Position numbers and translations under genes: made by a program | Shown here: in pieces, positions 50,716 through 64,000 of the stretch | Layout: each line of letters starts with the position of its first letter | How positions within the stretch are numbered: the first letter of the stretch is position 1 | The notes under the pieces: generated by a model | Told to the model about the DNA's origin: nothing | The model's input: only the letters and a program-made list of their open reading frames with translations | The model's database searches: none | Assembly: GCA_000708525.1 (NCBI GenBank) | Contig: JMRP01000004.1 | Span: 105,714 to 169,713, forward strand | Source of the DNA: Cyanobium sp. CACIAM 14 | Lineage (GTDB): Bacteria > Cyanobacteriota > Cyanobacteriia > PCC-6307 > Cyanobiaceae | Direction of reading: 5' to 3' | Length of the DNA stretch: 64,000 bases

Positions 50716-51215
50716 AGCCTGGAGAGTCCATGGCGCCCATGGACTCCGTCGCCGGCCGGGAGGCCCGAACGAACGATCGGATCGTCCGCAACGACCCCAC
50801 AGATCGATCAGTTCTCCTTAACCAGTCGGGGGATGCCGCAACCCCCTGAAGCGTTATTTACGTAATTGTTCACATTGGCTGGGTGTTCCGCTTGAGGGTT
50901 CGCCAACCCGGACTGGCTGGGCTGCGCGGTCCAGCCTGTCCGTGCGACGAAACTGAACCAATCCCGAACGTCCTCGTCGGGACTTGGATTTGGTAGCAAT
51001 CAAGACAGCGTAAGGGTATTGGACGCTCACTTCTTGGTGATCCCGGTCACGTCTGGGGGTAAGCAACGACACTCCTCCCGGCGAAGGTTTCGGGCCTGTC
51101 CGGCCTCGAGTGATGACGATCTGCGGCCATTGGATGAACATCTTTTTACTCATATTTACGCATTATGCTTGCAGAATATATGCGGTAACCGACAGTCGTG
51201 TGAAGCACGTGTAAT

Positions 51216-51250: not shown

Positions 51251-51375
51251 AAGTCGGGTAAAGGCTTAAAGCGGCTTGAGCGGATCGATGTAGGTATGGA
51301 GCACGGCCCGGCTGAGGAATCTCCGCCTCGCCCTCCTGGGATTACAGGACTTTTCGTACCTTCATCCTCAGAAAC

Positions 51376-54081
51376 ATGACTGCCAACAACACCACCCGCA
51401 CCGTCGGGATCGAGAAGACCAAGATCGAGGTGGGCACCAGCACGACGGTGACGGCCTCGGCGGCATCCACCACGCCGGCCAAGGACGACGTGGTCTCCGG
51501 GGATGCCAGTGCCTCGGCGAACACCACCGCTCAGGCCGCCATCCTCAATAGCCAGATCAAGATCGGCACGGCCGGCACCCTGAACGCCACCGAGACCGGC
51601 TCGGTGGCCGCCACGGCCACCACCACCACCGGCGACGCCACGGCCAGCGCCAGCAATGACGGCCCCACCGGCGGCATCATCGGCCACCATCCCATCCAGA
51701 TCGGCACCGATGCGAAGGTGACGGCGATCGTCAACAACGACGCCTCGGCCGAGGCGACGGCGGTGGACGGCGCCACCAGTGCCACCGCCAACACCGGCAA
51801 GGTCTTCGGCATCAAGAACGTCGGACTTCAGGCCGGCAACGGCACGAGCCTGTCCGCCGATGCCACGGGCACCAACACCGCCACCGCCACCTCGGTGGGG
51901 CTTCCTCCCGGCACGGGTGCCGCCACCGCCACGGCCGGTGACTCCGGCGCCAAGGTGGTGGGCATCTACGGGAGCGGCGCCAAGATCATTTCACCCCCTC
52001 CAACGGACGGTGAAGCCTCCGCTGCGGCTGCGCCCTCAAGCGACAGCAGCAGCATGGATTCCTCCGGTCCCCTGAAGATCTCCTTCGGCAACAGCGGCAC
52101 CCTTTCGGCCTTCGGCACCGGAGGGTTCGACTCGAAAGCCAACAGCGTCACGGGCACCGCCGAGGCGTCGAGCCTGGCCAAGCTGGTGGCCGGCATCGCC
52201 GTGGGCGCGACCAAGGTCAAGATCGATGAGGGTGCTCCGGCCGATTCCACCCCGATCGTGAAGTCCCCGGGTGGCATGGCCATCAGCTTCGGCGAGAACG
52301 GCACCGTCGCCGCCCAGGGGCAGGCGGATGGCAGCGCCGCTGCCAGCACCACGACCGGCCATGCGGATGCCACCGTCGGCATCGACACGATCGGCGGCAT
52401 CGTCGATGTGAACAAGCTTCCCGGCGCCCCCACTCCCCCGGTGCCGGTGGGCGACACGACCCTCAGCATCGGCAAGAACGGTGACGTCCAGGCGGCAGCG
52501 GTGGGCACCGGCACCGCCGAGGCCACCTCGGTGACGGCACCTCCAGGCCTGGACGTGAGGGCCACCACCAACAACAGCAACGTGGTGGGCATCGCCATCG
52601 ACAAGCTGGCCATCGGTGCGGACGCCACCCGCCTCTATGCCGGCGCGGGCAGCACCCAGACCGCCACCGCCAAGAGCACCACCTCCGGCGGCGATCCGGT
52701 GGCCAGTGCGGCCAATGGCGACTTCGTGGCCGGCATCCACGGCACCACGGTAAAGGTGGGCCAGAACGCCACCGATCCCACCACCGAGGCCGTGCTTGGA
52801 GCCTCCGCCACCGCCACCGGCGTCACCACCACGGTGGGCAGCACCGCGAATGCCGGTGTCGGCTCCAAGGTGGTGGGCTTCAACCAGGGCAGCCTTTCCA
52901 TCGGAGAGAGCATCAAGGGCACCGGTGTGTTCAGCACCACCGGCACCTCCAACCTCGATGCCAGTGCCTCGGCGGTGACCGGGAACTCCACCGCCCAGGC
53001 CGGGGGCAGCGGCTCCAAGGTGATCGGCCTCAACCAGGCTCCCGTCGCCATCGGCAAGGCTGGCAGCGTCGATGCCTCCGGCAGCGGCAGCGTGGCCGCC
53101 ACCGCTCAGTCCGTGACGGGGGATTCCACCGCCGGCGCCGAGCAGAAGGCCCTGGGCATCAAGGACAGCAAGATCACCATCGGTACGGATGGCAACGTCA
53201 GCGGCGCCGCCGCCCTCACCGGTCAGTCCTCGGCGACCACCACCACCGGCAACGCCACGGCCAGCACCGACCTGGCGAGCAAGGGGATCGACAACGACGT
53301 GAAGATCGCCATCGGCCAGAAGGGCAACGTGACCGGCACGGCCGACGCCAAGGACCTCGGCACCCAGGCCTCCGCCGTGACGGGGGATGCCGACGCGAGC
53401 TCCCAGCTCAAGGCGATCGGCATCCATCTGGGTGCCGGCATCCCGATCTCCATCGGCACCACCGGTGACACCACCGGCACCGCCACGGCCTCGGCCCCCA
53501 GCGTGCTGGCCACCACCACCACCGGCAATGCCAGCCTCTCGGTGGACCAGAAGGTGGTGGGGATCAAGGGCAGCGGTGAGGACTACGGCATGTCCTCGCT
53601 CACCAAGGATGGGGGCAGCTCCATCGGCGCCGGCCTGTCCGGCAACATCGCGGGCTCCGGCACCGGCAGCGCCACCGGTAAGGCCAACACGGTCACCGGC
53701 GACGCCTCCGCCAGCACCGATGCCTTCATCGCCGGCATCAAGAAGGTCAACCTCTCCGCCGACAACGTCACGGCGAACGGGAGCGGCACCTACAGCACCT
53801 CCGCGACCGCGGTCACCGGGGATGCCAGCGCCGATTCCCACGTGAAGCTGGCGGGCCTGCTGGGCGACCACAACACCGCCAGCCTCGGCGGGAATCTCAC
53901 CGCCTCGGCGATCCTGAGCAACACCGTGCTGGCCACCACCGTGACCGGTGCGGCCACCGCCAACGCCTGCAGCGATGCGGTGGGCCTCAGCGGGTACCAC
54001 GTGAACATCCTGCAGAGCGGCAACATCACGGCCTCGGCGGTGAACACCTCCAGCGCCAGCGCGCAGACCGTGACGGTCTGA
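51376..54081 (+). CDS. Large low-complexity repeat protein (about 17-18 degenerate 42-60 aa repeats); putative secreted/surface beta-solenoid
   Basis: Recurring unit [KPS]-[IV]-x-IG-xxGxVxAxAxGx..AxATTVTGDATASxxxKVVGIKxS; Ala/Thr/Gly/Ser-rich; one Cys and no Trp noted by eye. Confidence 0.8.
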   Translation: MTANNTTRTVGIEKTKIEVGTSTTVTASAASTTPAKDDVVSGDASASANTTAQAAILNSQIKIGTAGTLNATETGSVAATATTTTGDATASASNDGPTGGIIGHHPIQIGTDAKVTAIVNNDASAEATAVDGATSATANTGKVFGIKNVGLQAGNGTSLSADATGTNTATATSVGLPPGTGAATATAGDSGAKVVGIYGSGAKIISPPPTDGEASAAAAPSSDSSSMDSSGPLKISFGNSGTLSAFGTGGFDSKANSVTGTAEASSLAKLVAGIAVGATKVKIDEGAPADSTPIVKSPGGMAISFGENGTVAAQGQADGSAAASTTTGHADATVGIDTIGGIVDVNKLPGAPTPPVPVGDTTLSIGKNGDVQAAAVGTGTAEATSVTAPPGLDVRATTNNSNVVGIAIDKLAIGADATRLYAGAGSTQTATAKSTTSGGDPVASAANGDFVAGIHGTTVKVGQNATDPTTEAVLGASATATGVTTTVGSTANAGVGSKVVGFNQGSLSIGESIKGTGVFSTTGTSNLDASASAVTGNSTAQAGGSGSKVIGLNQAPVAIGKAGSVDASGSGSVAATAQSVTGDSTAGAEQKALGIKDSKITIGTDGNVSGAAALTGQSSATTTTGNATASTDLASKGIDNDVKIAIGQKGNVTGTADAKDLGTQASAVTGDADASSQLKAIGIHLGAGIPISIGTTGDTTGTATASAPSVLATTTTGNASLSVDQKVVGIKGSGEDYGMSSLTKDGGSSIGAGLSGNIAGSGTGSATGKANTVTGDASASTDAFIAGIKKVNLSADNVTANGSGTYSTSATAVTGDASADSHVKLAGLLGDHNTASLGGNLTASAILSNTVLATTVTGAATANACSDAVGLSGYHVNILQSGNITASAVNTSSASAQTVTV

Positions 54082-54175: not shown

Positions 54176-56332
54176 ATGGCGTTCCAACCCATCACCACCG
54201 CCCTGTCGCGGGCCCTCGCACTGCGGCTCGATCCGGGCACCATCCATCTCGGCGGTGGCCTCAGTGGACTCAATCTCACGGTCTCCCCCGCCGCCCAGGC
54301 GAGCAACCGGGTGGTCCTGCCGGCCTCTCAGCCCGTCGGCTCGGTGGCCACCGCCCTGGGCCTGGGTCTCGGCTCCAGCCGGTTCCTCGCCGATCCAGCC
54401 AACGCCGACTTCTTCAACAGCCCCGGCCTCTCGATCGTCACCGGCGGTGGATCCATCGGCGGAACAGCCGCCGCCACGGCCAGCACCACCGGCCGCAACG
54501 ACAACACCGCCGACGCCAGGGCGGTCAACATCGGCCTGGCCAATCTCGATGTGGTCACCCGTGGAGCAACTGGGGATCTCCTTGGCGTGGGCCCCCTGCA
54601 CATCGGCACCCTCCTCAACCCCTTCACAGCCACGGCCTCGGTGGCGACGCGCTCACTGCAGGCTCCCCAGAGCACACCGCTCAACACGGCCCAGCTGAGC
54701 GCTCTGGCCACGGTTCGCGGACTGGAGGGCGCCCCCCCGGCCGGGCCTGCGCCTTGGCAGGCCGTCGCAGCCGCTCCACTGACGCTCGGCGGGATCCTGC
54801 CCAGCTTCTACGGCCAGCCCAACGCCGCCGTGCTGGCCGCCGCATCACTCGATGCGGACCCCGGGCCGACCACTACCACCTCCCGTGCCGTAGCCGATGC
54901 CAAGGGCATCGAGGGCTACCGGGTCATGGCCCTGACGCCGGCTGGGGGCGGTACCGCCCAGGTGAGCGGCCTGGCCGCCGCCACCCTCACCCTCAACGGC
55001 GCCCCGCCCACACCCGCCCAGCCGGCCGACCTGACGGCGAGCGCCATCGGCATCGATCACTCGGCCCTGCGGGGCCCTGGCAGCGGGTCCGTGGAGTTTC
55101 AGGGTTCCGGCCTGGCCCTGCTCGATGCCGCCCCCCCTCAATCCCCCCCTCCGCCGGCGGGCTCCCTGAAACTGAACAGCCTGCAGGGGATCGGTATCCT
55201 CGCCAGCGACATCCAGACCAACGGTTCCAACGCCACCGTGATCGGCACAGGTGGCTTTGCGGCACCGAAGGCCGGCGGCCTCCTGAGCGGCATGGATGCG
55301 GCCGGCATCGACAACTCCAGGATCTACTCCGGCTCCGGGACTCTCACGGTGGAGGGCCGGATCCTCACCGAGCAGGACGCGAAGGTGGATGCCAACGGCG
55401 ACGGGGTGCTTTCCCCGACCACCTTCCTGGATGCCTCGGCGCTCACGGGGGGCCAGGGCGGCTTCGATGGCATCCGCAACAGCACGATCCTCACCGCCGG
55501 CTCCGGGAACGCCCAGGTCTACGGCTCCTCCAACAACAGTCGGATCGACCTCTCCAATGGTTCGATCAACCTCGATCGGGCCAAGGGTTCCACCCTGGCC
55601 GTCAACAGCGGCGACGGCGTCAAAACCGGCTCAATAACAGTTGGCCTGGCGCTCGACAACAGCCTCAAGGGCGGGTTCGGGAGCAACCGCGTGCAGGTGG
55701 GTGCCGGCAGCGGCAACCAACTGGATGGCGGCTTCGGCCAGGACCTGGTGATCGGCCCGACGAGCGGGAGCGGCAGCAACACCTTCAGGCAGTCCAATGC
55801 CGGTGCTGCGCTGGATGCCGCGACCCCGAGCGCCACCCCGCTGCCCGGCAGCTCCTTCGCCGAGCGGCTCACCGATCCCGGCTTCTGGGCGAGCCTCAGT
55901 GCTTCTGACAAGCAGACCCTGTGGACGACCGGCAGCCTGCAGCAGGGTGGCCAGACCTTCCGCGAGGACACGTTCAGCAACCTCAGAACCGGTAGTGGCG
56001 GTGACGTCCTCGAGGTGAGCAGCTCCCTGGGCTCGCTCACCCAGGGTCTCTGGGAGAGCCAGGGCGCCCTGTTCGGCGTGCAGGGCGGGCAGCTGGTGGT
56101 GCGCGACGGTCCGGCGAACAGCCAGCTGGGCCTGGTGGTGGGCACCCTGGCGGACATCCGCTCGCTGGGGATCGGCGCCCCTTCGCTGGCCTACGCCACG
56201 GACACCCGCCAGCTGATGTTCGATGCCGACGGCGACTGGAAGGACGGCGGCAGCCGCAGCCTCGGCACGGTGACGATGAGCGACCCGGCTGCCCTCACCA
56301 AGGCCAACATCCACTTCGGCAGCGGCGCCTGA
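54176..56332 (+). CDS. Repeat-rich putative T1SS-exported surface protein with RTX-like C-terminal segment
   Basis: Repeats related in style to the preceding ORF; VDANGDGVLSP; C-terminal DTRQLMFDADGDWKDGGSRSLGTVTMSDPAALTKANIHFGSGA resembling RTX-protein C-termini (YDADGxGxG..FATL..). Confidence 0.7.
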   Translation: MAFQPITTALSRALALRLDPGTIHLGGGLSGLNLTVSPAAQASNRVVLPASQPVGSVATALGLGLGSSRFLADPANADFFNSPGLSIVTGGGSIGGTAAATASTTGRNDNTADARAVNIGLANLDVVTRGATGDLLGVGPLHIGTLLNPFTATASVATRSLQAPQSTPLNTAQLSALATVRGLEGAPPAGPAPWQAVAAAPLTLGGILPSFYGQPNAAVLAAASLDADPGPTTTTSRAVADAKGIEGYRVMALTPAGGGTAQVSGLAAATLTLNGAPPTPAQPADLTASAIGIDHSALRGPGSGSVEFQGSGLALLDAAPPQSPPPPAGSLKLNSLQGIGILASDIQTNGSNATVIGTGGFAAPKAGGLLSGMDAAGIDNSRIYSGSGTLTVEGRILTEQDAKVDANGDGVLSPTTFLDASALTGGQGGFDGIRNSTILTAGSGNAQVYGSSNNSRIDLSNGSINLDRAKGSTLAVNSGDGVKTGSITVGLALDNSLKGGFGSNRVQVGAGSGNQLDGGFGQDLVIGPTSGSGSNTFRQSNAGAALDAATPSATPLPGSSFAERLTDPGFWASLSASDKQTLWTTGSLQQGGQTFREDTFSNLRTGSGGDVLEVSSSLGSLTQGLWESQGALFGVQGGQLVVRDGPANSQLGLVVGTLADIRSLGIGAPSLAYATDTRQLMFDADGDWKDGGSRSLGTVTMSDPAALTKANIHFGSGA

Positions 56333-56346
56333 GTCGCGACGGAACC

Positions 56347-57149
56347 ATGCTTGCCGTTCCCCAGCTTCACGATGCTCTCCTCGGTGCCGTCGACGCCATG
56401 GCGCGGCGGCCCCTCCACGCGCTGCTCGAAGAGCAGGGCATCCTCCAGGGGTTGGCCCGTGATCTCGCGCTCGAGGCGCTTCGGCAGGAGGCCCGCTTCA
56501 GCCCGGAGGAGAGCCGGGAAGTGCTCGCGCAGGTCTGCGCCGGACTCCCCTGTGCCCCTCCCGACCACCTCGAGGGCGACTGGATCGCCGCCCTGCCGGA
56601 GACCCTGCGCGCCACCGTGCGGCAGCGCTGGGACCATCTTCGTCTCCAGAAGGTTCTGGAGGACCGCTACGGGGAGCGGGTGGAGGCCCACTTCCTCGAG
56701 CGGCGGGCGGACCTCGAGCAGGTGGTCTTCCGGCTGATGCGGCTGCCGCAGCAGGGGCTCGCCGAGGAGCTCTATCTGCGCCTGATCGACGACGACGCCA
56801 GCTTCGGTGATCTGGCCAGCCGCCATTCCCTCGGGGAGGAGAGTCTCACCCGGGGGATCGTGGGCCCGATCGAGATCTCCCAGCTGCACCCCACCCTTCA
56901 GGGCGTCCTGCGTTTCCTGGCGCCGGGGGACATCCACCCCCCTTCCTGCTCGATCAGTCGATCCTGCTGGTGCGTCTGGAGCACCGCCGGCCCCCGAGCC
57001 TCAACGAGGCCCTGCGGCACCGCCTGCTCCAGGAACTGCTGCAGCCGGATCTTCAGGCCGTCATCGAGGCCGGCCTGACCGAACTGCGTCGTTCCCTCGC
57101 CCCCGCGGCCCCGCCGCCGATCCCTGCGCTGGCCATGGCCGGAGCCTGA
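56347..57149 (+). CDS. Parvulin-type peptidylprolyl isomerase/foldase, apparent frameshift at a C6 run
   Basis: DDDASFGDLASRHSLGEESLTRGIVGPIEISQLHPTLQGVLRFLAPGD; expected C-terminus PFLLDQSILLVRLEHRRPPSLNEALRHRLLQELLQPDLQAVIEAGLTELRR continues in the -1 frame. Confidence 0.75.
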
Positions 57150-57152
57150 TCC

Positions 57153-60100
57153 ATGACCACCACCACCCGGATCGACGATCTGCTGCGTTGCTTCCCCTTC
57201 CTGGCCGACCAGCCGGAGGATCTGCTGCAGCGGCTCGCCGACCAGGCCCAGCTGCAGCGGTTCCAGCAGGGCCAGCCGATCTGCCGCGTCGACCAGCCGC
57301 CGGCCCGGATCTTCTTCCTGCTGGAGGGCACGGCCCGAGCGGTCGTGTTCTCGAAGCGTCTCCCGCGGGGGGTGGCCACCCTGCAGCGACTCGGCCCCGG
57401 CACCGTGATCGGCTGGACCCTGGTGAGCTGCGGCCGCTGCTGGGAGACCCTCATCGCCTCCACCGATCTGGTGGTGGTGGCCCTGCCCCACGAGGCCCTG
57501 CAGCGGGAGATGGACCGGCAGCCTGCCCTGGGCGAGCGGGTGCGGGGCAGTGTCAGCCCGGCCGAGTTGTTCGCCGTTCTCGATGCCCATCTCCAGGACT
57601 ACCCGCGTCCCCTTGCCCAGGAGGTGCTGGAGGCGGCCACCGGGCTGGCCGATGGCAGCCTGGCGCTCACCTGGACGCCGGCCGATCCGCCCCTTTTCGA
57701 GCGCCCCGAGGAACGGCTCTGGCTGGTGGCGGCAGGACCGTTGCCCCTGGGCCGGGCCCTGGGGCGCTCGGAGCCCATCGAGGCCCAGGAGGCCGTGCGG
57801 CTGCTCGGCGTCGACCGCCAGGGGCTGGCGGCGATCCTGGAGCCTCCGGCGACGGAGGAGGGCGGGGATGCCGGCAACGCCTGGCATGCGCGGCTCCTGG
57901 CCCGCTGGGAGCAGGAGCGCCGGGCGCTGGAGCCCGCCGCGATCACGGCCGCCAAGCCCATCGACCTGACGGTGGCGGCGACACCGATCGATGCAGAGCT
58001 GAAGGGGCCCGAGGCCTACCCGTGGGTGCGGGGGGTCGGGCCGCTGGAGTCGCCGATCGCGGCCTTCCTGATGCTCAGCCAGCATCTCGATCTCCCCTTC
58101 CGGCGCGACCTGCTGCGCCGGGTGTTCGGGGATCAGGTGCAGCGGCACGGCGAGGCCTCCCTGGCCCTGGCCGGCGCGGTGGCCGAGTCGATGGGGCTGC
58201 AGACCCAGCTGCTCCAGATCCAGGCCGAGGCCCTGCCGCGGCTCTCGCCGCCCCTGCTGATCCGCTGGGGCAACGGCCTGGCCGTGGTCTACCGCTGCAC
58301 GGCACGGACGCTGCTGCTCGGCATCCCCGCCGTCGGCAACCAGGAGCTCAGCCTGGCCGACTTCCGCGAGCAATGGGGCCAAGCCGGCGAGGTGCTGACC
58401 CTGCGGGTGAATGACCTCACCCCGCGGCGGCGCTTCGGCTTCCGCTGGTTTCTGCCGGCCCTGCGCCAGCACCGCACCGTGCTGATGGAGGTGCTGCTGG
58501 CCAGCTTCTTCGTGCAGCTGTTCGGCCTGGTGAACCCCCTGCTGATCCAGCAGGTGATCGACAAGGTGATCATCAACAACAGTCCCGGTGCCCTCGGAGT
58601 GCTGGGGGTGCTGCTGGTGGTCTTCGCCCTGTTCGAGGGCCTGCTGCTCTGCCTGCGCACCTTCCTGTTCGTGGACACCACGAACCGCATCGACCTGAGC
58701 CTGGGGACCCAGATCATCGATCACCTGCTGCGGCTGCCCCTCAGCTACTTCGACCGGCGGCCGGTGGGGGAAGTGAGCAGCCGCATCGGCGAACTGGAGA
58801 AGGTGCGGGGCTTCCTCACCGGCACCGCCCTCACCACCATCCTCGATGCCATCTTCTCGGTGCTCTACATCGGGGTGATGCTGATCTACAGCTGGCAGCT
58901 CACCCTGCTCACCCTGGCGGTGGTGCCCTTCCTTGTGCTGCTCGTGCTGATGGTGTCGCCCATCGTGCGCCTCCAGCTGCAGAACCGGGCAGTGGCCAAT
59001 GCCCGCACACAGAGCCATCTGGTGGAGGTGCTCAGCAGCATGATGACGGTGAAGGCGCAGAACATCGAGCTGCGCAGCCGCTGGAAGTGGCAGGACCTCT
59101 ACACCGACTACGTGGCCGATGGCTTCGACAACACCCTGGTGGGTACCACGGCCAGCTCCATCAGCGGCTTCCTCAACAAGCTCTCCGGTCTGATCGTGAT
59201 CTGGGCCGGCGCCGGCATGGTGCTCTCCGGCTCTCTCAGCCTGGGGGAACTGATCGCCTTCCGCATCATCGCCGGCTACGTCACCGGCCCCCTGCTGCGG
59301 ATGACCTCCATCTGGCAGTCGGTGCAGGAGACGGCCCTCTCGCTGGAGCGACTGAGCGATGTGATCGACCATCCCCAGGAGGCTCCCGAGGACAACGCCA
59401 GCCGCCTGATCATGCCGCCGATCAAGGGCGACATCTGCTTCCGGAACATCTCCTTCCGCTACAAGGCCTCCTCGCCACTGTTGCTCAAGGGACTGAACCT
59501 CACCATCCCCCATGGCACCTTCGTGGCGATCGTGGGCACCAGCGGATCGGGGAAGAGCACGCTCACCAAGCTGCTCGCCAGGCTCTACAGCCCGGAGGAG
59601 GGGGTGGTGCTGGTGGACGGGATCGACGTGGCGAAGGTGGAGCTCCACTCCCTGCGCCGTCAGCTCGGCATCGTTCCCCAGGACACCGTGCTCTTCGATG
59701 GCTCCGTGGAGGAGAACATCACCCTCACCAATCCCGACGCCAGCACCGAGGAGGTGATCGAGGCCGCCCGCATCGCCGCCGCCCACGACTTCATCATGGA
59801 GCTGCCCGCCGGCTACTCCACCGAGGTGGGAGAGCGGGGCAGCAGCCTCTCGGGCGGCCAGCGCCAGCGGATCGCCATCGCCCGCACGATCCTGCAGAGG
59901 CCCCGGCTGCTGATCATGGACGAGGCCACCTCCGCCCTCGACTACCAGACCGAGCGGGTGGTGAGCGAGAACCTGATGCAGGCCCTGCGGGGCTGCACCG
60001 TGCTGTTCATCACCCACCGTCTCTCCTCGATCGTGAAGGCCGACATGATCGTCTGCATGGGCCAGGGAGCCGTGCTCGAGGTGGGCACCCATGACGAGCT

Positions 60101-60250
60101 GATGCAGGCCAGGGGCCCTTATTTCGTCCTCTTCCGGCAGCAGGGGCGCTCCTCTGCCAGCGGCTCGGCCCCCCCCTGGCCCCCTCACTGGCCGTCACCA
60201 CCGCGCAGGGGGCGGATCCGCTCATTCCCACCGGAGCCATCGAGCCATGA
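57153..60250 (+). CDS. Type I secretion ABC transporter (HlyB-like) with N-terminal cNMP-binding-like and degenerate C39-like domains; apparent frameshift near the 3' end
   Basis: ABC motifs AIVGTSGSGKSTLTKLLARL and [29 protein letters not shown] with FDRRPVGEVSSRIGELEKVR; N-terminal FQQGQPICRVDQPPARIFFLLEGTARAVV; -1 frame gives a stop overlapping the hlyD-like ATG (ATGA). Confidence 0.88.
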
Positions 60251-61725
60251 CTGCCTCCAGCAACGGCAACGGTTCCAGCCCTGGCAACGGCCTCGCCAAT
60301 GGCCATGGAAATGGCAATGGCAATGGCAATGGCAGCGGCTATGGCAAGGGCAAGGTCCACGCCATGGGCCAGGCCGTGGAACGCTTCGTCGGTCAGGACA
60401 CGGCCGGCCGCACCGCCACCCTGGCACCACCGGCGCCGGCCCCCCTGCCTCTGGTGCGCCTCTCCGCCAGTCGGCGCCGCACCCACCTGCCCCGGTCGAC
60501 CCGCGGCTGGAGCCGCGCCATCGTCTGGAGCCTGATCGGTCTGACCGGCTTCGGCGTGATCTACGGCTCGGTGGCCCGCATGGATTCCTCGATCACGGCT
60601 CCGGGAAAGCTGCGGCCCATCGGCGGCAGCTTCGAGGTCACCCCTCCCTTCGCGGCGCCGATCCTGAAGGTGCACGTGCACGATGGGGAGTTGGTGCGCG
60701 CCGGCCAGCTCCTGGTGGAGTTCGACGATCGCCAGGCCCTGCGCGAACGGAATGATCTGCTGCAGCAGGCGGATCTCTGGCGCAGCGACGTGAACCAGGC
60801 GGCGCGGCAGCTCGGTCTCCCGCCCCTCCCCGGCGGCAGCCGGGAGGAGAGGCAGGTGCTGGCGCTCGAGCGCAGGGACATCCAGCTCCGCCACCGGGTG
60901 GCCCTGCAGCGGTTGCGTCGCAGCAAGGCCGGGGAACGGGAGCAGGCCGATGTGCTGGAGGCCCTGCGGGCCCGCTATGCCCTCAACGCCAACATCCGCT
61001 CGCGCATGGCGACCCTGGCCCGGGAGGGGGCGATTTCCCACCTGGAGCTGGAGCGCCAGGATGAGCGCCAGATGGATCTGCTCAGCACCATCCGCCGCAC
61101 CGAGCAGCAACTGGCCGCCGCCGGCACCGGCGTGATCGAGAGCCAGCTCAACCGGGAGCAGGTGACCACCGAGAACGGCCGCCGGCTCTGGGATCGCTAC
61201 GACGAGGCTCGCCACCGCCTGCTCGACACCACCACCCGGATCGGCCAGGTGGAGGAGCGGCTGCGTCTCGGCCGCGTGACGGCGCCGCGCGACGGGCGCG
61301 TGTTCGATCTTCAGGCCAGGGCCGGCGAGATCGCCACCCCAGGGCGCCACCTGCTGAGGCTGGTGGGCCAGAGGGGGCTGGAGGCTGAACTGTCTGTCTC
61401 CAACCGGGACATCGCCTTCCTGCGCCCCGGAATGCCGGTGGACGTGCGTGTCACCTCCCTGCCCTTCACCGATTACGGCTCGCTCAAGGGCAGCGTGGTC
61501 CGGGTGGGAGCCGATGCCCTGCCGGCCGACCCGCGCACGGGCCAGGAAGCCTTCCCCGTGATCGTCAGCTTCGACGGCCGCAGCCTCGGCCGGCGCGGCC
61601 AGTCCTATCCCCTGCGGGCTGGCATGGCCGTGACGGGGCTGGTGCAGCAGGGATCCAGGCCCGTGCTGGCGCTGCTGAACGATCGCTTCACCGGTTTCTT
61701 CGACGCGGCCCGGACCATGCGCTGA
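60247..61725 (+). CDS. HlyD family type I secretion periplasmic adaptor subunit
   Basis: Single N-terminal TM, GKLRPIGGSFEVTPPFAAPILKVHVHDGELVRAGQLLVEFDD biotinyl-lipoyl-like motif, coiled-coil, VTAPRDGRVFDLQARAGEIATPGRHLLRL. Confidence 0.92.
   Translation: MTASSNGNGSSPGNGLANGHGNGNGNGNGSGYGKGKVHAMGQAVERFVGQDTAGRTATLAPPAPAPLPLVRLSASRRRTHLPRSTRGWSRAIVWSLIGLTGFGVIYGSVARMDSSITAPGKLRPIGGSFEVTPPFAAPILKVHVHDGELVRAGQLLVEFDDRQALRERNDLLQQADLWRSDVNQAARQLGLPPLPGGSREERQVLALERRDIQLRHRVALQRLRRSKAGEREQADVLEALRARYALNANIRSRMATLAREGAISHLELERQDERQMDLLSTIRRTEQQLAAAGTGVIESQLNREQVTTENGRRLWDRYDEARHRLLDTTTRIGQVEERLRLGRVTAPRDGRVFDLQARAGEIATPGRHLLRLVGQRGLEAELSVSNRDIAFLRPGMPVDVRVTSLPFTDYGSLKGSVVRVGADALPADPRTGQEAFPVIVSFDGRSLGRRGQSYPLRAGMAVTGLVQQGSRPVLALLNDRFTGFFDAARTMR
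60307..60336 (+). repeat. Hexanucleotide microsatellite GGAAAT-(GGCAAT)3-GGCAGC encoding Gly-Asn repeats
   Basis: Directly visible: ggaaatggcaatggcaatggcaatggcagc. Confidence 0.85.
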
Positions 61726-61741: not shown

Positions 61742-64000
61742 TCAGGCGGCCAGAACCGCTGGGCTGGCTTCCGCAGCGCCGTGATCGAGCGGGGAGCCGG
61801 CGGCATGCAGGGCCGGCAGGTCGGCGATCCCGGTGACGCTGCCCCCGGAGCCGAGCAGCACCAGGCTGCTGCCGGTGGCGCCGGTGGCGATCGCCAGCTG
61901 TTCGAATCCCGCGGGCCGCTCCCCGATGCCGGCCACGAGCTGGTCGAGGGGAGCGATCGGCAGCAGCCGGGCCTGTCCGATCCCCTCGACACCCGACGGC
62001 GTCAGGTCGATCAGCTGGCTCTGAGGGTTGCTGGCCGCCTGAATTCCGCTCAGGCGGAGGGAGAGCCGGTCCGTCAGACCCAGGCCACCACCACCGTTCT
62101 CCGGGCTCAGGGCCAGGTCGGCCAGCACGGGCAGGGCGCGGCTGCCGGTATCGCGGATCGTGCGGATGGCATCCACCCCCGCCAGAACGAACTGATCCCG
62201 CCCCGGGCCGCCGACGACGACGAGCGGCGGATTGCCGGAATCTCCGGTCGCGAAGATGGACGACAGATCCAGTTCAAGGCGATCGTCCCCTGCGCCGCCG
62301 TCCAGGCGGCGGGTGGTGGCGCCGGCTGTCAGCACATCGTCCCCCGCTCCGCCGCGCACCTCCTCGAAGCCGCTGACACCGCCCAGGATGCCGCTGGCCT
62401 CCCCCCGGGAGAGATCGACCTGCACAGGGTTCTGCCAGGTGGCGTAGTCGAGCCGGTCCTCGCCGCTTCCTGCGGCCAGGACCCCATCGAGCGTTCCCTG
62501 GCTGCCCACCGACACCACGGTGTCCCGCTCCCCCAGAGAAAGGTTCTCGATCCCTTGGAAAGCGAGGCCGCCGATGCTTCCCTCCCCCTCTCCAGCCAGC
62601 GTGACGGCCAGAGGCTCCGGCTCGGGGCTTCCCTTGGCAGGGTCGGCGCCGGTCACAACGGTGCTCACCTCCGCTCCGCTGCGGTCCTCCAGGGTGTCGA
62701 TGCCGGCACCGCCGTCCACCGATCCCGTCAGCGCTCCCATGGGCAGGCGGATCCTGTCATCGCCAGCGCCGCTGTTCAGCGTCAGGTCCGCCCCTCCGTC
62801 GCCCGTCACGCCGATCGTCACGGTGTTGCCGCCGTTCCCGAGCTGGATGGCATTGCTGGAACCGGCGTCCACCTGGACGTTGGCGTCCTGCACGGCCCCG
62901 CGCACCTGCAGCGCATTGACGCCGCCACCCAGATCGATACGCGAGCCGATCACGTCTCCATCCACCTGCAGCCGGTCGTCGCCTGCGCCCAGCCGAACGG
63001 TGGAGTCGAGCAGGGCGATCCGCTGCAGGCCGGCTCCAGAGGGGGTCGCGGCGCCTCCCTCCGGAGCGGTGGTGATGCTGACCTGATCGTTGCCGCCGCC
63101 CGTGTCCAGCAGGCTGTCCACCAGTGCGAGACTCCTGGCCTGAAAGGGCGGCGCTGGGGTCCCCGCGGTCTGCCCGGCGCCGGGGAGGTCGATCAGGAGG
63201 TCGGCTCCCGCCGGGTCCAGGGTGCGGAAGCCACTGGTGATGGTGACCCGGTCGTTGCCGCCCCCGAGAAGGATGGCGCTGTTCCGCATCGCCTCGGCCA
63301 GCAGGTCGATGTTCACCTGCCGCAGCTGCTGCGCTTCCGGCCCCTTGAGCTGAAAGCCGGTCAGGCTGCTCAGCTCCAGCGAGGCGTCGCCGCCGGCATC
63401 CTCCAGGCGGCTGTCCTGGAGGCCGATCAGGGACTGATGGATCTGCCCCCGGGCCGTGCCCCCCGCCAGCAGGGCCAGGTCGAGGCTGTCGTTGAACCGC
63501 AGCACGATGGTGTTGGCTTCGGAGCCCAGCAGCAGGCTCGCCTGCTGCAGGCCCGTGTGCTGGGTGTTCACCTTCAGCGCGGCATCGTTGAGCACCGAGA
63601 GGCTGAGCAGATGCAGATCCTGCTCGGAGTTCACGATCACCCGTGGGATGGGGGTCCCGCGCAGATCGATCACCGCGTCGGTGATGGCGCCGAGGGAGTG
63701 GGTGTAGTCGCTGCTGGCCACGCCCTCCACCGAACGGCTGGCGATCCCCTGGCTGCTGCGCAGCACCACCCGGAAGGTGGGGATCTCGGGCTCCGGCGCC
63801 CCGATGCTCGACGCGTCGGGGCCCTCGGCCCGGATCGTCTGCGCCGACACGCTCCGGTCGCTGCCCCGCCCATCCCGGCCGGACCGTTGGCCGGCCCCGG
63901 GGTCCGGCCAGGCCAGGGGGGAGGCTCCGGCGGCCAGGGAGCGAGGGCCGGCGACCGGCACCTCCGGGGCCTCCGCTGCGGGCGTCCGCCCCGCTCCGGC
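61742..64000 (-). CDS. RTX-like calcium-binding repeat protein (frame open to window edge, likely 5' truncated)
   Basis: About nine degenerate nonapeptides: GGGNDRVTI, GGGNDQVSI, GAGDDRLQV, GAGDDRIRL, GGAGIDTLE, GSGEDRLDY, GGAGDDVLT, GGAGDDRLEL, GGPGRDQFVL; no in-frame stop between the GTG at 63961 and 64000. Confidence 0.75.
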   Translation of the reverse strand, partial: AGAGRTPAAEAPEVPVAGPRSLAAGASPLAWPDPGAGQRSGRDGRGSDRSVSAQTIRAEGPDASSIGAPEPEIPTFRVVLRSSQGIASRSVEGVASSDYTHSLGAITDAVIDLRGTPIPRVIVNSEQDLHLLSLSVLNDAALKVNTQHTGLQQASLLLGSEANTIVLRFNDSLDLALLAGGTARGQIHQSLIGLQDSRLEDAGGDASLELSSLTGFQLKGPEAQQLRQVNIDLLAEAMRNSAILLGGGNDRVTITSGFRTLDPAGADLLIDLPGAGQTAGTPAPPFQARSLALVDSLLDTGGGNDQVSITTAPEGGAATPSGAGLQRIALLDSTVRLGAGDDRLQVDGDVIGSRIDLGGGVNALQVRGAVQDANVQVDAGSSNAIQLGNGGNTVTIGVTGDGGADLTLNSGAGDDRIRLPMGALTGSVDGGAGIDTLEDRSGAEVSTVVTGADPAKGSPEPEPLAVTLAGEGEGSIGGLAFQGIENLSLGERDTVVSVGSQGTLDGVLAAGSGEDRLDYATWQNPVQVDLSRGEASGILGGVSGFEEVRGGAGDDVLTAGATTRRLDGGAGDDRLELDLSSIFATGDSGNPPLVVVGGPGRDQFVLAGVDAIRTIRDTGSRALPVLADLALSPENGGGGLGLTDRLSLRLSGIQAASNPQSQLIDLTPSGVEGIGQARLLPIAPLDQLVAGIGERPAGFEQLAIATGATGSSLVLLGSGGSVTGIADLPALHAAGSPLDHGAAEASPAVLAA

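Follow-up and report, generated by a model that had tools for sequence, protein, structure and literature searches.

REP901, a 901-aa degenerate repeat protein, is encoded within the window (the whole 64,000-nt stretch analyzed, from Cyanobium sp. CACIAM 14), where its gene is the first of a conserved type I secretion cassette. Most likely, REP901 is secreted and represents an uncatalogued kind of surface protein. Its C-terminal module recurs at the extreme C-termini of multi-thousand-residue RTX giants, and its repeats are predicted to form a β-solenoid.

REP901 heads a conserved secretion cassette

The gene order is REP901, SEC718, PpiC, ABC exporter and HlyD on the plus strand, followed by a convergent RTX-like gene, and this order is kept in seven congeners. 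The features in and around the cassette are:

51304–51375, plus strand: conserved ~70-nt leader that immediately precedes the start codon of REP901, a candidate regulatory element (ortholog alignment)
51376–54081, plus strand: REP901, 901-aa degenerate repeat protein, predicted 18-rung β-solenoid (ORF, orthologs, AF2 model, unit HMM)
51976–52068, plus strand: predicted disordered loop, REP901 residues 201–231 (AF2; length varies among orthologs)
52210–52272, plus strand: predicted disordered loop, REP901 residues 279–299 (AF2; variable among orthologs)
53683–54078, plus strand: C-terminal module, REP901 residues 770–901, a candidate type I signal or cap (matches the extreme C-termini of RTX giants)
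54176–56332, plus strand: SEC718, 718-aa cargo-like partner (profile match to RTX β-roll modules; accompanies REP901-type genes in other genera too)
56347–57149, plus strand: gene for a PpiC/parvulin-type peptidylprolyl isomerase, with a frameshift in this assembly at a C-run near 56937
57153–60755, plus strand: type I secretion ABC exporter with cNMP-binding, C39-like, TMD and ATPase regions (homology ends near 60170–60250)
60247–61725, plus strand: HlyD-type membrane fusion protein (Pfam/NCBIfam, conserved order)
61742–63961, minus strand: RTX-like convergent protein with GGxGxD motifs (position conserved in the cassette)

The cassette, the SEC718 partner and the wider family were absent from an earlier note on this DNA, which had described the REP901 frame alone. 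Its coordinates, strand, length and start were right, and the orthologs share the same start Met. Full-length orthologs are present in six congeners (68–77% identical) and their differences pile up at third codon positions, which indicates that the ORF is real and coding; the orthologs include Synechococcus sp. CCY 9618 and Cyanobium sp. FGCU52, which fall in the same genus grouping as the window organism. REP901 has a mass of 84.6 kDa and a pI of 4.7. The composition bears out the description as Ala/Thr/Gly/Ser-rich (A+T+G+S 58%), with one Cys and no Trp. The N-terminus, MTANNTTRTVGIEKTKIEVG, is already repeat-like and carries no hydrophobic signal, so that the claimed lack of a classical signal peptide agrees with our own judgment by eye from REP901 and ortholog sequences that no N-terminal Sec signal is present. 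RTX motifs, likewise said to be missing, are indeed absent from REP901, which contains no GGxGxD and has no PF00353 match.

SEC718 contains one GGxGxD and has no Pfam match; its family profile matches the RTX β-roll modules of AlgE4 (2agm, E=1.9e-5) and LapA (9cse, E=7e-4). SEC718 was rejected as a carrier of the REP unit, since the unit HMM gives only 15.9 bits, though the N-terminus looks alike by eye. DUF4347 proteins lie downstream of SEC718-type genes in three loci (L032, L033 and L034). The PpiC gene is intact in seven orthologs; the frameshift near 56937 is either a sequencing error or a recent mutation in the draft assembly. Two OEP/TolC-type genes are located elsewhere in the genome, unlinked to the cassette.

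The exporter shows the features of a HlyB-type transporter, namely a C39 fold without the catalytic Cys, an ABC TMD and an ATPase. Its C39-like region (residues 295–412) has residue 382 as its only Cys. The score against TIGR01846 is 706.7 bits, just under the 725.6 cut-off. The exporter frame stays open past its usual end and into the HlyD gene (60160–60755), giving about 1200 aa as compared with 1011–1032 in most orthologs; the G022 ortholog is likewise extended. Of the 37 genomes of the genus, 14 have an exporter ortholog (E<1e-90), among them every one of the 12 that are REP-positive. As for the other two, G023 has the module upstream too, and the G032 contig breaks off within the exporter gene.

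The C-terminal module is common to REP901 and RTX giants

At about 23 loci in eight genera, PpiC-ABC is immediately preceded by a gene that ends in the REP901 C-terminal module. The module is sometimes the last ~130 aa of an RTX giant of more than 2–5 kaa, where it gives domain scores of 21–45 bits versus at most 1.7 in shuffled giants, and PF00353 RTX repeats are present in two giants. Two architectures therefore exist: a short REP protein accompanied by SEC718, or one giant that combines RTX repeats with a REP-type C-terminus. Longer variants ending in the module precede PpiC-ABC in G002, G007, G014, G016, G023, G024 and G040. In G002, G007, G014 and G024, the first search had placed REP-type genes on contigs other than that of the exporter; the exporter loci of these genomes hold a second, long REP-family gene directly upstream of PpiC, whose frame reaches at least 2.8–4.8 kaa in three of them, where it is ended by the contig edge. 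A REP-family gene also lies directly upstream of PpiC in G016. On one G014 contig (C25; L097, 1–14400), the frame of the giant with a REP C-terminus extends over at least 4,800 aa and runs off the contig.

The order was predicted beforehand for other genera and then seen in eight genomes from seven genera (G528, G530, G511, G525, G461, G484, G587 and G562). Each has at least one locus with a REP C-terminus, with or without SEC718, followed by PpiC-ABC, HlyD and the convergent RTX-like gene being present in most as well; PpiC immediately follows the REP gene in G562. Some extra REP genes of these genomes are solitary or accompanied by SEC718 only (L107, L110, L115 and L118). In another genus, a region of ~47% GC (L080–L081, G114:C1:1845000-1884999) encodes several REP-like proteins of 0.6–1.8 kaa and has a SEC718-like gene and its own HlyB/HlyD, a tandem expansion of the REP family. 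The genomes are related and their counts are non-independent, so the hypergeometric co-occurrence figure of 5e-8 was given no weight, and the argument is instead the recurrence over genera with cargo of differing lengths.

The earlier note had proposed that export would need an atypical signal. The absence of a Sec signal and of RTX repeats stands, and the proposal can be refined to a type I cassette plus a C-terminal module common to RTX giants. The C-terminal region, a feature of type I cargo, is conserved and common to the giants; its signal role is putative. Judged from the cassette, the C39-like domain that lacks the catalytic Cys and the C-terminus common to same-slot giants, a C-terminal, RTX-independent type I signal on REP901 is the likely answer to the export question.

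C39-like domains without the catalytic Cys go with large, C-terminally signalled RTX cargo (review, PMC8277102). That REP901 has no RTX repeats speaks against it as cargo, and the exporter might instead serve SEC718 and the RTX-like minus-strand protein, both of which have RTX-like features, with REP901 co-regulated but intracellular or otherwise exported. We regard this arrangement as improbable, because the REP901 module forms the C-terminus of same-slot RTX giants even where the cassette has no SEC718, and because the REP gene of G562 directly precedes PpiC.

REP901 is built of degenerate repeats

REP901 contains 18 degenerate units of ~44 aa each, with a mean pairwise identity of 29%. An ungapped self-comparison, which had been suggested as a check, places REP901 above its shuffles by a weak margin (120 versus a maximum of 98 in 40 shuffles), and a unit HMM was therefore used. 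This HMM (45 positions, built from seven regular REP901 units) gives 679.6 bits on REP901, while 200 composition-preserving shuffles reach a maximum of 97.7 (mean 62.7) and the reversed sequence reaches 110. The internal repeat statistics are thus significant. Twelve stretches score above the 20.7 bits of the best unit in shuffled sequence, and five of these twelve lie outside the units used for training. The repeats of REP901 are real but degenerate. The period and the motif read from the translation (IxIGxxGxVxAxAxG...TVTGDATAS...VVGI) proved correct, and the 18 rungs of the AF2 model accord with the 17–18 units claimed.

REP901 is predicted to form a β-solenoid

AF2 modeling with an input of three sequences only gave a mean pLDDT of 75.7 and a pTM of 0.77 for full-length REP901. 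For the C-terminal 354 aa (residues 548–901), the pLDDT is 89.1 and the pTM is 0.88, and all five models fall between 79 and 89. Each rung is composed of a long strand, a TGD/N turn, a medium strand and a short IxIG strand. The 18 rungs are mostly 40–58 aa apart, and the wider gaps of 62–83 aa coincide with the disordered loops. The check by AlphaFold that the earlier note had called for therefore returned a confident all-β model. Its proposal of a parallel β-helix holds, as a prediction, insofar as the model and the strand alternation described below point to an all-β, solenoid-like protein; parallel winding of the strands is putative.

AF2 yields confident but unrealistic β-solenoids for near-perfect repeats (PMC11795689), and support was therefore sought in the sequence. 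In the 16 long strands, core-type residues alternate with a mean even-odd difference of 0.52, compared with 0.19 ± 0.04 after shuffling; the strands were chosen by the AF2 model, which makes this test supporting and no independent proof. The whole-sequence autocorrelation also alternates (lag 1, z −5; lag 2, z +4.6). The alternation would fit strands with two faces, one carrying Ala/Gly/Val and the other Ser/Thr. In addition, the units are far from perfect repeats. REP901 is thus supported, as a prediction, as a β-solenoid and is probably rod-shaped.

The solenoid could be an artefact of that same bias if REP901 were a low-complexity, mucin-like and mostly disordered Ser/Thr-rich glycoprotein, as its content of A/G/S/T might suggest. 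TPR plus Glyco_transf_41 (OGT-like) genes adjoin REP genes at three distant loci, in G014, G024 and G040 (L029, L033 and L034). We give this alternative a low probability: apart from the low identity between units and the strong strand alternation, the five fragment models are confident, and the turns and hydrophobic positions are kept across the orthologs. Glycosylation and a solenoid are compatible with each other. O-glycosylation of the Ser/Thr faces is a hint that we have downgraded, since GT41 genes adjoin REP genes in these three loci only, none of the remaining loci examined has such a neighbor, and GT41 genes are widespread among relatives (77 of 100).

A Foldseek search of the PDB found no fold match at E≤0.001 for either the full model or the 548–901 fragment, with TM-scores too low to interpret, and the full-length model has no match at E≤0.001 among viral fold models. 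EtpA is among the non-significant PDB matches. The best, non-significant match of the fragment is CsgA of Pontibacter korlensis (E=0.019), which could be taken to indicate a curli-like functional amyloid subunit that polymerizes outside the cell. A TM-score of 0.08, the absence of any curlin repeat match in Pfam and of a significant CsgA fold match, and the linkage to type I rather than CsgG-type secretion genes make such a role highly unlikely.

REP901 has no match in Pfam, NCBIfam or PHROGs, the REP901 family profile finds no relative among PDB sequences, and no earlier description of a REP901-type protein was found in the open-access literature searched. With no PDB fold match either, its standing as an undescribed family is upheld. 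The suggested survey of family distribution was carried out with C-terminal profiles. The REP901 profile, giants left out, has matches in 5 of 391 genomes sampled from the class; a broader one that includes the C-termini of longer proteins detects 25 of 300 genomes in 10 of 59 genera, within the same bacterial family.

Comparison with known systems

SwmA and Sll1951, which are RTX proteins (PF00353), resemble REP901 in their HlyB/HlyD-type type I linkage, acidity and repeat-built sequence, and RTX-like repeats also occur in the giant variants and probably in SEC718; REP901 differs in lacking RTX nonapeptides and in having a different, ~44-aa unit. Cyanobacteria commonly have surface proteins of the RTX class (PMC3034196), and REP901, being linked to type I genes, acidic and nearly Cys-free, might be read as a classical RTX adhesin or S-layer protein of this type. 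In the absence of GGxGxD and of a PF00353 match, we attach very little probability to that assignment; REP901 may still serve in an S-layer. Like SwmB and the picocyanobacterial surface proteins of >3,000 aa (PMC9387257), several REP-family members are giants; they exceed 2–5 kaa, contain RTX repeats and come from the same bacterial family. REP901 itself has 901 aa.

The cassette exporter has the N-terminal cNMP-binding, C39-type, TMD and ATPase order of HetC-type peptidase ABC exporters (PMC10986499). HetC, a cyanobacterial exporter with an active C39 domain, binds ppGpp via its cNMP domain (PMC10986499), and by analogy nucleotide control of REP901 export is possible. The cassette exporter differs in its large cargo and in the absent catalytic Cys, for which reason no leader cleavage is expected. 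As an elongated, all-β surface protein of the predicted solenoid type, REP901 is similar to FHA and EtpA, the two-partner and autotransporter β-helices. However, its linked genes are type I and not type V, and it has no significant fold or sequence match to them. Pfam finds neither an FHA-like TPS domain of two-partner secretion nor a YadA head or anchor of trimeric autotransporters in REP901.

Proposed export and function of REP901

No part of the picocyanobacterial proteome is less understood or more variable than the surface proteins. In marine relatives, giant surface proteins have been tied to swimming and to grazer resistance (PMC9387257, PMC4949707). The cassette synteny, the recurrence of the module in the same slot, the C39-like domain without Cys, the exporter co-occurrence, the AF2 model and the strand alternation lead us to consider it quite probable that REP901 serves as dedicated type I cargo, which the cell either displays on its surface or releases from it, and that it is a Ca2+-independent β-solenoid; its export, localization and fold details are those we infer here. 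REP901 would carry no Sec signal and would remain competent for export while in the cytosol, perhaps helped by the linked PpiC. The cNMP/C39-like ABC exporter would recognize it via the C-terminal module, and the protein would leave the cell in a single step via HlyD and an unlinked TolC. Outside the cell, REP901 would fold without calcium into a long β-solenoid with an Ala/Gly core and Ser/Thr faces and, with its RTX-like partner SEC718, may have a structural role on the surface or in the extracellular space. By analogy with SwmA and SwmB, roles in a coat or S-layer, in adhesion and in grazing defence are all compatible with REP901 (PMC3034196, PMC9387257, PMC4949707).

One conserved, defined cassette unites cargo, partner, isomerase and exporter, and REP901 offers a compact 901-aa cargo, compared with giants of several thousand residues, for studying recognition and export without RTX repeats. 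A more far-reaching and rather doubtful idea is that REP901 represents a new class, in which a calcium-independent, Ala/Gly-cored β-solenoid with wide ~44-residue rungs would be exported by a C39-like exporter via an exchangeable C-terminal export/cap module common to multi-thousand-residue RTX giants. If true, such a class would run counter to the association reported between C39-like exporters and RTX cargo.

Conserved elements upstream of REP901

In an alignment of seven orthologs, the leader directly before the start codon (51304–51375) is far more conserved than the rest of the upstream region. It contains CCTGGGATTACAGGAC (a TCCTG/CAGGA dyad), which occurs in exact form nowhere else in the genome. 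The idea of a structured 5′ leader was rejected, as the leader folds no better than shuffles (z −0.7) and has no match in Rfam. A second conserved patch is seen in several orthologs at ~50990–51020, about 350 nt before the REP901 start, with the consensus GTAnCAACCGAGACAG; it is a possible promoter or small RNA.
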